64,000 nucleotides of DNA from contig NC_088300.1 in NCBI RefSeq assembly GCF_032854445.1, forward strand, positions 71,028,984 to 71,092,983, written 5' to 3'. Position 1 is the stretch's first letter, and every line of letters starts with the position of its first letter. Position numbers and translations under genes: made by a program. The DNA comes from Liolophura sinensis. Its lineage: Eukaryota; Mollusca; Polyplacophora; Chitonida; Chitonidae. This document shows, in pieces, positions 1,253 through 63,660 of this stretch. Under the pieces are notes generated by a model, which made no database searches, was not told where the DNA came from, and worked only from the letters and a program-made list of their open reading frames with translations.

Positions 1253-3617
1253 TCAAACACGAGTTTTGCAGTGTATTCTATTATTTACGATGTTTTCCCT
1301 ATAGTCAACCTTAACCTATTTAATTTTGTCTGTCCCTCGTAAAATAACAAATAAACGTTTGCACGAATGAAGGCTTAGTCGAGTCACATGGAGATGACTT
1401 TTGTCACATGACCTCACTGGCCAATAGTATATTACGACCATACAAACTTGTTATCAAAACTTACAGCTATTTAATTTTAAGTTTTGGATCCAATTTGGAA
1501 GAATTAGCCATGAACTGTCTTAAACAAAGGGTAAGAAAAAGCTACCAACTTTTGTAAGTACAGACCACATGCATTTTCGAGTTACGTTGGTAAACAAATT
1601 CAGCTTAAATTCAGCTTAATTGCAGTTAATGAAATAAATTATTTCGCTGGTCTTTAGGGGGTTTCTTCATACTTAGTGAGAGCACTTATGTTTGAATATA
1701 TACGAAATGACAAGTTATACACTTTTTACAAGGACTATATATTTCGGTAAATTTAGGGAACGGTTGTTCAAAATATCAACTTATTCACCTTTCGGTTCAA
1801 AGCCACCGACTGATGGTCGAAACACTCGAGTTACACTTAGTTACTGTTTGGTTGTGTCGCGCAACGCCATTGATTCCTCGTCGGATACCGTGGAGGAACA
1901 CTAGTATTAGTCACGTTTTCCATCAATTTACACTGTTAATCCAAGGAGCACTGCAACTAAGGTTCGCCTAGAGATCGACCATGATCCTTGTAACCTTACC
2001 CTGTCCGGAGACGTTATCGAGCCCCAGTGTCCACACACTCCTCTCAGCACCCATGGCAAGCCCCGATGGCAAGCACCAATGGTCGACTCGAAAGTTGGTC
2101 ATCCTTGGCTTTCTCGACTACGCTAACCGGCAAAGACGCTCCCGGAAATGTCGTTCAAGACCTTTTGCTCTCAAGCCATCAATACCTCTTAACATTTTCA
2201 ATTTTTTTCATACATGGTTTCTATTTTCTCGATAAACACCCGAAAGTGTAACGGCTCTCGCGACATCGTGTCTTCATTTCCAGATGACGTCGATAGATCG
2301 TGATACAACATGCTCCAGACGGTTAGGATGGATATCTTGTATGGTGTGACATGTCTTTGAAACGAATACATATGCATACTGTGAGATTAACGGATAACGG
2401 GACACTTGGCAATGCCTCAAGAGTTGGCCATGACGGCAAACTCCTTGAAACCGAGAAGGAAATCGACAGCACGACAACATGGGCGTCTCAATTATTGTTC
2501 TTAGTTTCTGAAATGCCTTTGCAGTATGTTCCCATCGATTCCAGGATAATAGCCAGTTAATCTCATGAAAATGTGTTTTCCTTAGATGGAATAATTCACG
2601 GATTCTTCAGTTGAATACGCAGCAATTTCTATGTTAAAAATCTTTATGCAACCATTATGCAAGAGGTTGCAAAATTTCAATTCACTTCAATGCGACAAAA
2701 CAGGTCCAGAAAACTGTCAAAGTCCCGCCTTCAATGTTTCAATGGAATAAATAAATCAATCGATAGGGTACATAAGGTGTCGAGATCTTGTCAGTACGCT
2801 GTCAGAGCCATTCACGTGGCCTTTCATGAAATTCCTGTAAATCACCTGTCTTCCACCAAAATTGTATATACTAGTACCTTAAGGGTATACCGATGTGGTA
2901 TTTGTCAGAAAATGTGGATATTTGTGTTTGACTGTATCTTGGTCTACGTTTTACACAACACAACAACCAACCCATCAAAATAATCCTCAGTAGGCATAAT
3001 GCACCCAGACCATATCTAGACTATACACAAATGAAATCCGTTCTAATTATAAGACAATGGCATGGACAAGAACGTGCAGAACTTTCTAAATTTTCAATAT
3101 TGACACAAAACAACCTTTGTACATCCCTTTAGACCACCCTATCAACATGTTTGGAGATCTCTGAAGACAACAGTGTCAAATAATTCATCCAAACTTTACA
3201 GCTTATGTTGGTTACATTTCTTCAGCTGCTTAATAATATGAAATATGATTTTTCAAAAATTATAGGTGGGATGCTCTATATTAACACATGAGTGTTATTT
3301 TACATGATAGTTCATAAATGAATATGAGAAATACAAAGAGATATGTTTGTTTTAGTCCATGCCAATGCCTTTGAACATGTTGTATATATTTACAATTTGA
3401 TAACGATTATTTTGAGCCCTTTATTGCCGAACTGTCTTTAGTATAGGCTATCTTTAGATATGGTCTAGAGTAAATTTGTTGACATCTTACATCAAGAAAC
3501 CCCTAAGCTCACCCCCTGATTAAAACTCGGTGTCTGTCACATGTTGAAAAATTCTGTCGCACAGAGGAATTGTTGTTGCTAGCTACTTCACCCATAGAAC
3601 CATTTTACAGTATTGTT
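1253..3617. other. No gene seen
   Basis: Open frames here are at most about 108 codons (2657-2983). They have no recognisable domain, no signal peptide and no splice context. I see no tandem repeat or RNA gene. Confidence 0.55.
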
Positions 3618-3915
3618 AAAAAAACACTAATTTATTTATTTATTTATTTGATTGGTGTTGTACGCCGTACTCAAGAATATTTCACTTATACGACGGCGGC
3701 CAGCATTATGGTGGGTGGAAACCGGGCAGAGCCCGGGGGAAACCCACGACCATCCGCAGGTTGCTAGAAGACCTTCCCACATACGGCCGGAGAGGACGCC
3801 AGCATGAGCTGGACTTGAACTCACAGCGACCGCATTGGTGAGAGTCTCCTGGGTCATTACACTGCGCTAGCGCGCTAACCAACTGAGCCACGGGGGCCCC
3901 GAAAAAAACACTAAT
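3618..3915 (-). mobile_element. Near full-length tRNA-derived SINE with 14-bp TSD
   Basis: The body (3632-3901) is in reverse orientation. On its own strand it starts GGGGCCCCCGTGGCTCAG, has an A-box-like TGGCTCAGTTGGTTAGCGCG and a B-box-like GAGTTCAAGTCC. It then has a conserved body with CGTGGGTTTCCCCCGGGCTC and a tail ending TACGGCGTACAACACCAATC plus an AAATA-type repeat. Perfect 14-bp direct repeats (AAAAAAACACTAAT) flank it at 3618-3631 and 3902-3915, the mark of LINE-machinery retroposition. This is the best-preserved copy of the main SINE family in the window and serves as the reference for the others. Its ORFs on both strands are incidental. Confidence 0.9.
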
Positions 3916-6900
3916 CAGATATGAATCATTATCACAATTTCTAATCTAAAAATTACCAAAAAACTGTTGTTCTATATCTGCAAAATGTTGCTGTCACTGG
4001 AAAGTCTTTTTCAGTCATTTGTATATACTTAATAGTGAAATAGTACAATAGGGCCACACCGAGTTACTTCCCTTGAGGTCACTCACCTTTTATAGGTGCT
4101 TTTTAGAAGTAATTAAGGTTCCTCAATTAGGAAGTAATTTTTTTAATAATCCTGGCCCTAATTAAATACACTGGAAATGAAAAGTTTGGTGTGCATGTAC
4201 ATAGCATTTTAGCAGAGTCATTGTTTTAACTGTGACTCTCAATTAGAGCATCTTCATGAAACATTTGTACAGAAATCACCCCGATAACTGTGAAGATTCC
4301 CCAAAATAAGTAAGGCGACAGTGGAAAGCCCATTGAAGACTGTTTACAAAATTACTTTTATATTTGCTATTGGACGGAATAAAAGACATCTAGGCCCGAA
4401 AGGCCGGTATTTTTCTCTTGCAGTGGAATGAATCGGCATGGTTTATGTAAGTCGCAATGTAGTTCATCTGAAAGTCTTCATCTGTAATCTGTTTGTCTAT
4501 TTATTTTTGTATTTGATCGGTCACTGCACAGGTTTACAGGTGAAAGGCTGTCCTTTGTGTTCTATGAACAAACCACCGCCCTTGCTGATCAGGATAGGGG
4601 ACCCTGTACAATAAGAATGAAAGCAATGATACAAAGATATCCTTCTTGTATATCAGGACTTGCATGCTGGGGAAGTCTTAGCCTGTGTGTGTGTAGGGGA
4701 GTGGAAAAAGATAGAGCGCTCCATACCCTTACCTTCTTGGATTAAGCAAAACCCACTGCCTACAAGGATTGATTTCAACTAAACCAGCTTAGCTTGTACA
4801 GACTCGACCTTTAGATCTTTGATTTCGCCGCTTGGTTTAGACCATGTCTCAAAACTCGCAAACACAAAGCTCATGCCCAAAAGTCCCGTCGCCCTAGAAG
4901 TCCTGTGTAGAGTCAGCGCGGTTTGTTTGTCCGGTTTAGTGTTCAAAGCTGCAAAGCTACGAGAGCGAACATTCCCTCGGCCAACATGAGAGTGTTTGTC
5001 ATTGGTCGTGCTTGATGACGTCATAGCTTTAAGTCAATGCCACTTGGGAGTGGTGATTTACGGTTTATGGCGATTTCTAGCGGGGAGCGTTATAGTGTGG
5101 CTTATCACATACATATACCAGCTTTGTGTTACTATATACCAATACATGTACTTAGAAATCTTATACTTGGCGTTGGAAGTTCAGTTTAGTTAGGCATAAA
5201 TCACATCAGATAGGAACGAGTAACGAAACAGCTAACAACGACACAACGAATTGTTCTGAGCAATCTGGTACTTTTGATATTAGAAACGAAGTACACACTC
5301 TAACTATTCAAATTGCCTTCAGGGGCCGGAATAAAGATCGTAGTGTAAGATGACACCAAAGTCTGCGTTAACCATCTTTATGGTACGTGTATAGTGTCAC
5401 GTAAGTCGAAATCTAAAAACGCTGAGCGCCCTAATGGTTTGCTTCTGCCAGACCTCCACACAACCCCAGGCAGTATTGCCTAACGCCACAATCGGTCGAT
5501 AAAAAGGCTGCGAAGCACATGGCGTCGTGCAATCTCTTGACTACTGACAAAACTTTGCGGCTACTTAACAAAGCTTTTGGCCGGCGGCAATCTGTTAGCC
5601 CTTCATTATGGACTAAAGTGACTTGACCCGCGGCTTGTCCCGGATTACATGTGGAGGAAACGAATGACCGAAACATGACTGACATAAGATCGAACCTTCG
5701 GGGCGGGGTGAAGACCCGGAAAACTCCTAACATATTGCCGATGGCGTGAAAAGCATGTGACACCTGTCCTGGGAAGGTCTGCTTGAAAACAATTAACAAA
5801 GGACTAATATTGGTTTTATAAATGGTCGATGATTCCATAACTTTGACGAATTTATTCATTAGAATAAGATTGAACAATGTTTGAAATGTGTGACTCGAAC
5901 ATTTCTCAGAGTACACAATTATTCCGTTTAAATACGGTTTGTAAACGAATTCGTAAATTGTCTGAAACAATGTCTGTCAAACGTAAGTAGGTTGTTTTTT
6001 TTAATAAAAGTAGAGTCTCCATGAATACTGAGAGATCTGCAAAGGTTAAGCTGAATGTCAGAATGATTATAATGTCAGATATAAGGCATCCTTAACCGGC
6101 ACTTTGAAACGGCCTCAGACTCTGGCCAGATTTGGAAACTGATCTTTTATAGTTTAATCACAATCTGCTATATCTATTCTGTTCTAAAGTTTCTAGCTTC
6201 TATTATCCCCAGATTTTTTTGGTTTTTGACAAATTTTTAATATTTCATTAGATGTTTGGCAAGTTACTTGCAAACATTTCCACTTGAACCGATCAGACAT
6301 GCATACAATATTGGTGGGACAGGTGATATTCAACGAACGTTAGACTGTAAAACGGTGACACCGTCGACCGCGTTCTGTCATCAAGTCTCCGCAGTGATAG
6401 CTATGGAATGTACAAATTCCCTGTCCATTGCTGGGTTTGAACTGCCACCTGGTGTGTCCTCGCGATTAAAAGACAAGCACCTTTTACCACTACCCCGCGA
6501 ACTTTTAAAATTTACTTGCCTAAATTACAGATGTCTGTGAACGTCAGATTTAGGTTTTTTCTAATATGTTCTCCGAACAAAATGTGACATTTGCCGATTG
6601 CAAATCTGTCACTTCGATATGTCAGAACAATCTGACATTTCAATTTCCACACACTTCCATGATAACTTTGGTTATAAGTAAACTTGAGATTAAGGATGGA
6701 TCGATAAGGCTTAACCTTACATCCAAAACCAAGATTTGCTGATAAAAGCAGATAAGGCTTCATTTAAACTTTCGAAATTAATAAGGTAAGAAAAAAACTT
6801 GACTCTATTACATTGTTTCGTATAGTTAGATTCTGTATGTATTCTTAAACATTTATCACACACCGCCATTTTGTGGGATTATTATTTTGGGTATTTGTTT

Positions 6901-60221: not shown

Positions 60222-60513
60222 GTGAGTAACCATGGAAATATGAATGGCTAGGGGGTTGGACGTGAAAGTTTAATGAGATTTAGATATCAATTTTGTTCAA
60301 AATGTACTTTTACTAAAAATTCACAACTGTGACTTACATGTAATAAATGTGATGAGTAATTTTTAACTGTTGTTAAGTGAATTTCTTTCCAAAAAATTTG
60401 TGTATGTGTATGTAACATTTCCTCAGTGTGAAACGGGGTCTTATTTTGTTTTTACATGTGTATCCTGTCAGCGGGAGAACCTGTTTGTACATGTTCTTTT
60501 GTTCCTATTACAG

Positions 60514-60734: not shown

Positions 60735-60895
60735 GGTGTACAGGCACAGACTGTAGCCAACTTCTTCTTAGCATTTGAACAGGAACTGGAGATAATTCCT
60801 GTTTTAACAAGATAGACCTTAAACATGCCAAGCCAGAAGTGGTGATCAGTCAGCTGGGGAACCTGTTTGATATACAGCCAGAACAGGTTTTGAAG
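60735..60895 (+). CDS. GUF1: GUF1 exon 6, with a one-base frameshift in the NKID motif
   Basis: The exon starts [20 protein letters not shown], strongly conserved in the family. At 60804-60815 the sequence reads TTA ACA AGA TAG. One extra A would give the expected Leu-Asn-Lys-Ile-Asp of the G4 guanine-specificity motif and keep the rest of the exon open to the donor (AAG|GTGAGC at 60896). As given, the frame stops at 60813-60815. The exon is 161 nt, whereas all flanking exon phases require 162, an independent sign of a single lost base. The other exons are intact, so a consensus error or an individual null allele is more likely than an old pseudogene. Its 3' part (from 60828) is the founder of the tandem array downstream. 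Confidence 0.9.
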
Positions 60896-61853
60896 GTGAG
60901 CAAATTAAAAAGACCAAGCCAAAGGTGGTGATCATTCAGCTGGAGAACCTGCTTGACTTACGACCAGAACAGGTTCTTAAACTGAGTAAAGTAAAAAGAT
61001 CAGGCCAGAGTTGGTGATCATTCAACTGGAGAACCTGTTTGACTTACGACCAGAACAGGTTCTTAAACTGAGTATAGTAAAAAGATCTGGCCAGAGTTTG
61101 GTGATCATTCAACTTGAGAACCTGTTTGATGTATGACCAGAACAGGTTCTGAAGGTGAGGAAAGTAAAAAGATCTGGCCAGAGCTGTTGATCATTCAACT
61201 GGAGAAACCGTTTGACTTACGACCTGAACAGGTTCTGAAGGTGAGGAAAGCAAAAAGATCAGGCCAGAGTTGGTGGTTGTTCACCTGGGGAACCTGTTTG
61301 ACGTATGACCAGAACAGGTTCTGAAGGTGAGGAAAGTAAAAAGATCTGGCCAGAGCTGGTGATCATTCAACTGGAGAAACCGTTTGACTTACGACCTGAA
61401 CAGGTTCTGAAGGTGAGGAAAGCAAAAAGATCAGGCCAGAGTTGGTGATCGTTCAACTGGGGAACCTGTTTGATACACGACCAGAACAGGTTCTGAAGGT
61501 GAACAAAAGACCAGGCCAGAGGCGGTGATCGTTCAACTGGGGAACCTGTTTGATACACGACCAGAACAGGTTCTGAAGGTGAACAAAAGACCAGGCCAGA
61601 GGCTGTGATCGTTCAACTGGGGAACCTGTTTGATACACGACCAGAACAGGTTCTGAAGGTGAACAAAAGACCAGGCCAGAGTTGGTGATCGTTCAACTGG
61701 GGAACCTGTTTGATACATGACCAGAACAGGTTCTGAAGGTGAACAAAAGACCAGGCCAGAGTTGGTGATCGTTCAACTGGGGAACCTGTTTGATACACGA
61801 CCAGAACAGGTTCTGAAGGTGAACAAAAGACCAGGCCAGAGCCGGTGATCAAT
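60828..61853. repeat. Exon-derived tandem array: 12 copies of the exon 6/donor junction
   Basis: The anchor GAACAGGTT recurs at 60881, 60967, 61053, 61140, 61226, 61312, 61398, 61484, 61564, 61644, 61724 and 61804. Spacings are 86, 86, 87, 86, 86, 86, 86, then 80 four times. The first unit is the real 3' end of GUF1 exon 6 (68 nt of exon plus 18 nt of intron). Later units keep donor-like junctions such as CTGAAG|GTGAGG or GTGAAC but have no acceptor. Neither 86 nor 80 is a multiple of three, so frames shift between units; the many short frames on both strands are by-products. The 80-bp units are nearly identical, hence the youngest. Confidence 0.95.
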
Positions 61854-62129
61854 CCATGCTGTTAAAGTCATTGCATGTTAATGAGTTGGTATTGATACAT
61901 GTATGTTTACATCAACTATGCTTTTTTAGGGTCACCTTAGTTGTTTATTCAAACATTTTGATTTACTACATTCATAAACTTAACTGTCATTGTATAAGTG
62001 AATATTCCTGAGACTTACATTAAACTCCAATGCAATATAAATTCATATATTTTGTGTGGGTCTTCCAGAGTGATTGTGTAATAAAAACTCATACAATACG
62101 AATATGTTAATATAACTTTGTTCTGACAG

Positions 62130-62194
62130 GTGTCTGCTAAACATGGAACTGGTGTAAAGGAAGTCCTGGATGCTGTTGTTGAAAGGCTCCCAGC
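62130..62194 (+). CDS. GUF1: GUF1 exon 7 (G5 motif)
   Basis: The acceptor TTTGTTCTGACAG ends at 62129. The exon encodes VSAKHGTGVKEVLDAVVERL and Pro plus two bases, before GTAAGC at 62195. SAK (216-218) is the G5 motif of translational GTPases, and the VSAKxGTGV string is typical of LepA/GUF1. It starts in phase 0, continuing from exon 6 only if the missing base there is counted. Confidence 0.93.
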
Positions 62195-62780: not shown

Positions 62781-63660
62781 ACTTTTCACACTCATTGAAT
62801 TAACACTTTTTCCATTCTTTAAATCCACACTTTTTCCAATCTTTAAACACACACTTTTCTTAGTTTTTAAACCCACACTTTTCATATATGGTAAATCTGC
62901 ACTTTTCCCACTCTTTAAACCCAAGAGGGGCCTCCGTGGCTCAGTTGGTTAGTGCGCTAGCGCAGCTTAATGGCCCAGGAGTCTCTGACCAATGCGGTCG
63001 CTGTGAGTTCAAGTCTAGCTCATGCTGGCTTCCTCTCCGGCCGTACGTGGGAAGGTCTGCCAGCAACCTGCGTAAGATCGTGGGTTTACCCCGCGCTCTG
63101 CCCGGTTTCCACCCACCATAATGCTGGCCGCCGTCGTATAAGTGAAATATTCTTGAGTATGGCGTAAAACACCAATCAAATAAAATAAAAAAATACTTTA
63201 AACCCACACTTTTCCCTCTTCTTAAACACACAGGTCCCACTCTTTAAACCCACACTTTTCCCACTCTTTAAACCCCACACTTTTCCCACTCTTTAAACCC
63301 ACACTTTTCCCACTTTTTAAACTCACACTTTTACCAGTCTTTAAACCCACACTTTTCCCGCCTATTAAACCCACACTTTTCACAGTTGTTAAACCCACAC
63401 TTCTCATAGTCGTTAAACCCACACTTTTCATAGTCATTAAACCCACACTTTTTCCAGGCATTAAACCCACACTTTTCCCACTCTTTAAACCCACACTTTT
63501 CATAGTTGTTAAACCCACACTTTTCATAGTTGTTAAATCCACGCTTTTCATAGTCTTTAAACCCACTTTTTTCCCACTCTTTAAACCCACACTTTTCATA
63601 GTTGTTAAATCCACACTTTTCTTGGTCGTTAAATCCACACTTTTCCCACTCTTTAAACCC
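62781..63660. repeat. Minisatellite, period about 24 bp, split by a SINE
   Basis: Around 26 copies of a unit with the core AAACCCACACTTTTCCCACT followed by CTTT occupy 62781-62925 and about 63194-63660. Variant CATAGTTGTT and CATAGTCGTT blocks recur on the right side, showing local amplification of subtypes. On the minus strand the period gives an 8-residue KSVGLKSG-type repeat over 138 codons, which is a by-product and not a gene. Confidence 0.92.
62927..63193 (+). mobile_element. Full-length SINE inside the GUF1-intron minisatellite
   Basis: GGGGCCTCCGTGGCTCAGTT with the A-box region, GTGAGTTCAAGTCTAG as the B-box region, a well-kept body and the tail ATGGCGTAAAACACCAATCA followed by an A-rich stretch. 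Array units flank it on both sides. A TTTAAACCCA direct repeat borders it, but this sequence is also part of the array unit, so it is weak proof of a target-site duplication. Confidence 0.9.

Follow-up and report, generated by a model that had tools for sequence, protein, structure and literature searches.

The GUF1 exon end and its array

The window analysed here, a 64-kb stretch of the Liolophura sinensis genome, contains part of the GUF1 gene (Table 1; positions refer to the window unless a contig or another locus is named). Joined by hand, the exons in the window yield a peptide of 228 amino acids, a partial protein, that matches the lepA profile TIGR01393 (4.3e-94, 316 bits; the score lies under the whole-protein cut-off of 533.9 because the peptide is partial) and LepA structures in the PDB (2.1e-79). 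Across the assembly, identities of 81-97% to this peptide are confined to this locus; matches on contigs C1 and C8, at 29-48% identity, are presumably other translational GTPases. One C8 match (4.1e-14) outscores several of the GUF1 exons in a search with the family profile, and more LepA stretches lie downstream on C6, the contig of the window.

The exon adjoining the array aligns with bacterial LepA without gaps over its stretch in both of the alignments shown by the searches. The exon thus predates the array, and it is the exon that gave rise to the repeated unit and not the reverse. The original prediction had called it exon 6 of GUF1: the gene is as named, and the number, which rests on two upstream exons read by eye, is plausible. 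As assembled, the exon is one base short of the LepA frame at 60804-60815 and runs into a TAG at 60813-60815, so that this allele, or the local assembly, would not yield GUF1 protein; the deficit either arose in sequencing or assembly or marks an allele that is truly broken. Continued from the exon into unit 2 of the array, the frame also meets a stop.

Table 1. Coordinates at the GUF1 locus, with the further arrays whose start is an exon end backed by homology
Feature	Position	Strand	Details
GUF1 exon, probably exon 6	60735..60895	+	last 68 nt form part of array unit 1
Array unit 1	60828..60913	+	86 bp; 68 nt exon end and 18 nt intron; donor AAG/GTGAGC, GT at 60896
Units 2-3	60914..61085	+	86 bp each; starts 60914, 61000; donor lost, AAA/CTGAGT
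Units 4-7	61086..61430	+	87, 86, 86 and 86 bp; starts 61086, 61173, 61259, 61345; donor kept, AAG/GTGAGG
Units 8-12	61431..61830	+	80 bp each, near-identical; starts 61431, 61511, 61591, 61671, 61751; donor weakened, AAG/GTGAAC; longest hairpin arms
Partial unit 13	61831..61853	+	23 bp; right end of array
Next GUF1 exon	62130..62194	+	VSAKHGTGVKEVLDAVVERLPA; acceptor TGACAG at 62124-62129
L005, second GUF1 array	C6:71092984-71102983		10 kb next to the window
L009			SNF2 (5.2e-6); exon end at first donor
L014			fucosidase (2.7e-4, under Pfam cut-off); exon end at first donor
L015			Fe_hyd_lg_C, Fe-hydrogenase-like (3.2e-13); exon end at first donor
L016			OGDH (4.2e-21); exon end at first donor
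L019			RPC1 (2.4e-8); exon end at first donor
L020			ABCC3, ABCC transporter (2.6e-16); exon end at first donor
L021			RIBIOP_C (4.5e-11); exon end at first donor

Tandem Repeats Finder places a repeat at 60828-61851 (period 86, 12.2 copies, 89% matches, score 1192), and alignment in register resolves 60828-61853 into 12 full units of 80, 86 or 87 bp and a stub, as had been predicted (twelve copies of 80-87 bp). It had also been claimed that the first unit begins with the genuine end of the GUF1 exon and its splice donor, and so it does. Since the next exon starts at 62130, the units after the first all lie within one intron. Of the 11 full copies that lie in the intron, four have an intact donor and five a weakened one; GT is thus present in nine, from five of which the G at +5 is gone. 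An origin of the unit outside GUF1 had been named as one outcome that would speak against the prediction. In a search of the 609-Mb assembly with one 80-bp unit, all 12 matches fell inside this array (a missing match being no proof of rarity), and the idea that the unit is a dispersed repeat was rejected on the same count.

Several other features were noted in passing. In an upstream GUF1 intron, a 21-nt stretch (60467-60487) resembles a portion of the exon end, with a match of 90%. A later GUF1 intron contains a minisatellite of 24-bp period (62803-63660), interrupted at ~62926-63190 by what we take to be a tRNA-derived SINE-like element; a string search for a SINE found nothing. On C8, at 37880506-37891931, eight haemocyanin domains stand in a row (PF14830, best 3.3e-41), all of them in open frames, an arrangement typical of molluscan haemocyanin genes and one that marks the genome as that of a mollusc and not of an amphioxus.

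Two blocks of different age

Proceeding away from the exon, neighbouring units differ at 15, 7, 10, 10, 14, 13, 12, 3, 1, 4 and 1 positions. The near-identity predicted for the four terminal 80-bp steps is evident (the last four values, each of 80), but the predicted left-to-right fall in divergence is not a slope: it is a single step at unit 8. Moreover, the far block is the most exon-like, with units 8-12 differing from the exon unit at 11-12 of 80 positions and units 2-7 at 15-20 of 86. Units 5 and 7, which are not adjacent, are one base apart, and a tract of 145 bp (61131-61275) recurs at an offset of 172 with one mismatch, which together imply either duplication of two units at once or a conversion. 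A tree of the units joins units 5 and 7 (99), units 2 and 3 (95) and units 2-7 (78), the remaining inner nodes lying at 38-79.

Judged from these unit sequences, the array is composed of an old block, the product of one two-unit copying event within it, and a young 80-bp block. Of the readable history of expansion away from the exon that had been proposed, the origin from the exon end stands; simple outward growth does not, because there are two blocks, because a near-identical pair is non-adjacent and because the most distant block is the one that resembles the exon most.

Units 8-12 have hairpin arms of 20 bp, 80% complementary, that include the copied donor. Folding of five units gave z values of -3.3 (unit 9), -2.9 (unit 12), -2.2 (unit 3), -1.4 (exon unit 1) and +1.15 (unit 7). 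Growth driven by hairpins is a lead, to be set against the fold of unit 7, which is itself within a duplication.

Exon-end arrays elsewhere in the genome

A second array of exon end and donor lies ~5 kb farther on in the same gene, at 2959-4074 of the L005 stretch. Its units, of 48-62 bp, are arranged in higher-order patterns; unit 1 is the end of another GUF1 exon, VFAG...HPDSR, for which the PDB yields EF4 (1.2e-5). Its donor is CAG/GTGAGG, and AGGTRAG is kept at 16 of the 19 junctions.

A query for donor arrays (perfect CAGGTRAGT three times, with gaps of 20-50 bp) gave 1093 matches in the whole assembly. The matches listed fall, when grouped by hand, into 16 loci, all in C1:0-18.84 Mb. These were fetched together with four of the further clusters among the single-site matches listed, 20 stretches in total, which hold up to 38-44 copies each (L015, L014). 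In seven of the 20, all belonging to the systematic 16, a coding exon backed by homology ends at the first donor (Table 1). In six of the seven, 16-20 of the last 20 exon nucleotides agree with the best copy, and agreement drops towards chance upstream; in the fucosidase gene, essentially the donor side alone is common to array and exon. One open reading frame was searched from each of 12 of the other 13 arrays (all except L018) and none had a homology match; eight of these are among the 16 and four are the extra arrays from the single-site list. Long open frames occur in L008, L011, L017 and L022.

The two GUF1 arrays, and the supported arrays of other genes as well, have the real exon end first and have grown on the intron side. 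Minisatellites seeded by a functional junction had been called rare; with a second example in GUF1 and others in further genes, that description does not hold for this genome, and such repeats are already known from amphioxus as 'mirages'. By the evidence of its sequence, arrays of exon ends are not rare in this mollusc genome.

A rival possibility is that splice donors are special seeds for minisatellites, through breakage linked to U1 or R-loops, through the motif itself, or through selection for extra donors. The number of triple-array matches per single site is 1093/19904 (5.5%) for the donor word, 251/7585 (3.3%) for its reverse, 462/12640 (3.7%) for GTCAGRATG, a word of the same composition, and 370/9225 (4.0%) for the reverse of the latter. 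The donor rate is thus ~1.5 times that of the three same-composition words, whereas the acceptor word TTTKCAGG is at the level of its reversed control, without excess (531/64170, 0.83%, vs 241/29798, 0.81%). Counted as loci among the matches listed in C1:0-18.84 Mb, the donor word has 16 and two control words four each. Matches inside one array are, however, not independent, and a comparison by loci (16 vs 8) gives an excess of about two-fold (p = 0.07), the exposures being about equal as estimated from genome-wide densities. The donor enrichment is only modest. Moreover, seven supported exon ends among 20 stretches are not above the share of real donors suggested by the single counts (an excess over the reversed word of 12319/19904).

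Acceptor-side arrays seem to exist too, which also argues against a special role of donors. The acceptor sample comprised 13 loci, all those on C1 among the matches listed, with open reading frames of eight compared with Pfam. The array of L044 ends at the start of a probable tetraspanin exon (Pfam 0.0026, under cut-off); by eye, L046 (no Pfam match) and L047 (TM2 0.026, under cut-off) also resemble exon starts.

The control sample comprised 12 reversed-word loci among the matches listed, with edge reading frames inspected by eye and one (L035) compared with Pfam. No AGGTRAG was counted in the arrays of these 12 stretches (a count that misses the GGTGAGT on the other strand of the L029 unit), and no exon ends were seen by eye at the visible edges of the arrays. 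The array of L035 adjoins an exon of the opposite strand that encodes an Ig domain (I-set, 5.4e-6), and in L027, L028, L029 and L036 the array reaches or nearly reaches one end of the stretch, with that edge out of view. With edges read by eye, a single Pfam query, hidden edges and the L029 motif, this comparison is a weak one. (The listed loci of the reversed donor and of the acceptor are concentrated near both ends of C1, a contig of 96 Mb, within the initial 18 Mb and the final 15 Mb; those of GTCAGRATG are concentrated only near the left end.)

On balance, an origin of the arrays in some special property of donors is unlikely. The broader proposition, that 5' splice sites are preferred seeds by a process favouring donors over acceptors, perhaps in hundreds of genes (an extrapolation from seven of 16 arrays on 18.84 Mb), is doubtful; if it were true, the choice of a donor among tens of near-identical sites could be tested in nature. 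Any 9-mer of this sort has a few per cent of its copies in arrays, so that exon-end arrays are to be expected from tandem duplication and tolerance.

A probable mirage-type minisatellite in a mollusc

The GUF1 array is very probably a mirage-type minisatellite, in which a junction is duplicated, growth proceeds on the intron side, and the copies, spliced out by way of the first donor, drift freely. At the level of sequence, duplication across the junction and origin of the unit from the exon end are established; the initial tandem duplication would have captured the last 68 nt of the GUF1 exon, the donor and 18 nt at the start of the intron. The array would then have lengthened on its intron side as more duplications followed, presumably by unequal exchange or slippage.

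Splicing would proceed from the first donor, at 60896, with the later copies leaving as part of the intron, by analogy with RT-PCR results in amphioxus. As the original exon end and donor come first in the transcript, the later copies would be removed with the intron and would be free to drift; on the best reading, a first donor that is still in working order is what makes the array tolerable. Against this, the four intact and five weakened decoy donors might be expected to see some use. That the same outcome recurs in other genes would follow from a genome loaded with minisatellites.

Neutral drift of the copies is supported by the distribution of changes over codon positions. In the exon-derived part of the units, variable columns at codon positions 1, 2 and 3 number 10, 8 and 11 (of 22, 23 and 23 sites), with minimum changes of 12, 8 and 12, and this evenness gives no sign of protein constraint. 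It is also supported by the divergence of the copied donors, close to that of the remaining sequence, in seven other arrays, which had been chosen for keeping the motif: pooled, these differ at 39/410 GT positions (9.5%), at 6.3% over the donor 9-mer and at 585/7383 positions (7.9%) outside the donor, giving no clear signal of selection for or against copied donors.

The same figures bear on the proposal that the copies are functional, serving GUF1 as alternative exons or as decoy donors under regulation. In its favour, units 4-7 have an intact donor, GT is retained in units 8-12, and the exon-like part of each unit is mostly open. On the other hand, codon positions are without bias, and with periods of 86 and 80 the frame shifts from unit to unit and runs into stops, so that a role as coding exons was rejected; and those seven arrays show no consistent trend towards retention or loss of donors (in L009 alone, divergence is 17.6% at GT vs 5.4% outside the donor). 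A function for the copies is accordingly very improbable. That the array is an artefact of assembly, or collapsed or expanded, is scarcely credible: repeats invite errors and the one-base frameshift lies ~22 nt upstream, but each unit is marked by differences of its own, in an ordered series (as many as 20 of 86 positions relative to the exon unit), and similar arrays stand at other exon ends; doubt attaches most to the number of copies in the right block.

Arrays of this kind occur here in genes with housekeeping roles, among them GUF1 (two arrays), OGDH, RPC1 and an ABCC transporter, and in each of them nature tests how one donor is chosen by the spliceosome among up to dozens of near copies. 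Arrays of exon ends are also a possible route to longer introns or to new ones.

Mirages are described in PMC3087553 as minisatellite-like tandem duplications of exon-intron boundaries in the amphioxus Adh3 and globin genes, on the donor side in BflGb9 and on the acceptor side in BflGb6, with AG/GT signals in many copies and concerted evolution within a cluster. The account given there is that, by RT-PCR, mirages seem not to interfere with regular splicing; the GUF1 array, in contrast, is known from a single assembly. As in the amphioxus cases described, the GUF1 unit spans an exon-intron boundary (68 nt, and 18 nt with the donor) and many copies, though not all, keep the splice signal (GT in nine of 11). 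On the pattern of concerted evolution, with homogenisation in the interior of an array and the units at its edges left out, the observations are mixed: units 8-12 are near-identical and units 5 and 7 are one base apart, but of the two edges only unit 1 is divergent, and unit 12, the last full unit, is not. Unlike the amphioxus examples as reported, those found here are in a mollusc, in which GUF1 alone has two and a single contig has several genes with such arrays. A literature search on mirages, mollusc minisatellites and AGGT duplications, which covered little of the subscription literature, found no mirage outside amphioxus.

Minisatellites are known from introns of other invertebrate genes: that of the abalone TSSK1-like gene, length-variable and with a unit of 27 bp (PMC6905558), is an intronic minisatellite of a mollusc as in GUF1, and others lie in an earthworm metallothionein intron (PMC12783039); derivation from an exon end is not stated in the available text of either report. 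Internal tandem repeats that alter human gene structure in segmental duplications (PMC2812944) are likewise minisatellites that change exon and intron lengths and splice sites; unlike the copied exon ends of GUF1, they are described, in the part of that paper drawn on here, within exons or introns of recent paralogues. Introns can also be gained when exon segments that contain AGGT are duplicated in tandem in the genome (PMC3443670, in the portion considered), and here too a splice signal is copied. In that process an exonic segment gives rise to a new intron, whereas the GUF1 duplication spans an existing junction and only lengthens its intron. As far as the searches reach, the GUF1 array is thus a known kind of repeat, the mirage, in a new phylum, Mollusca.
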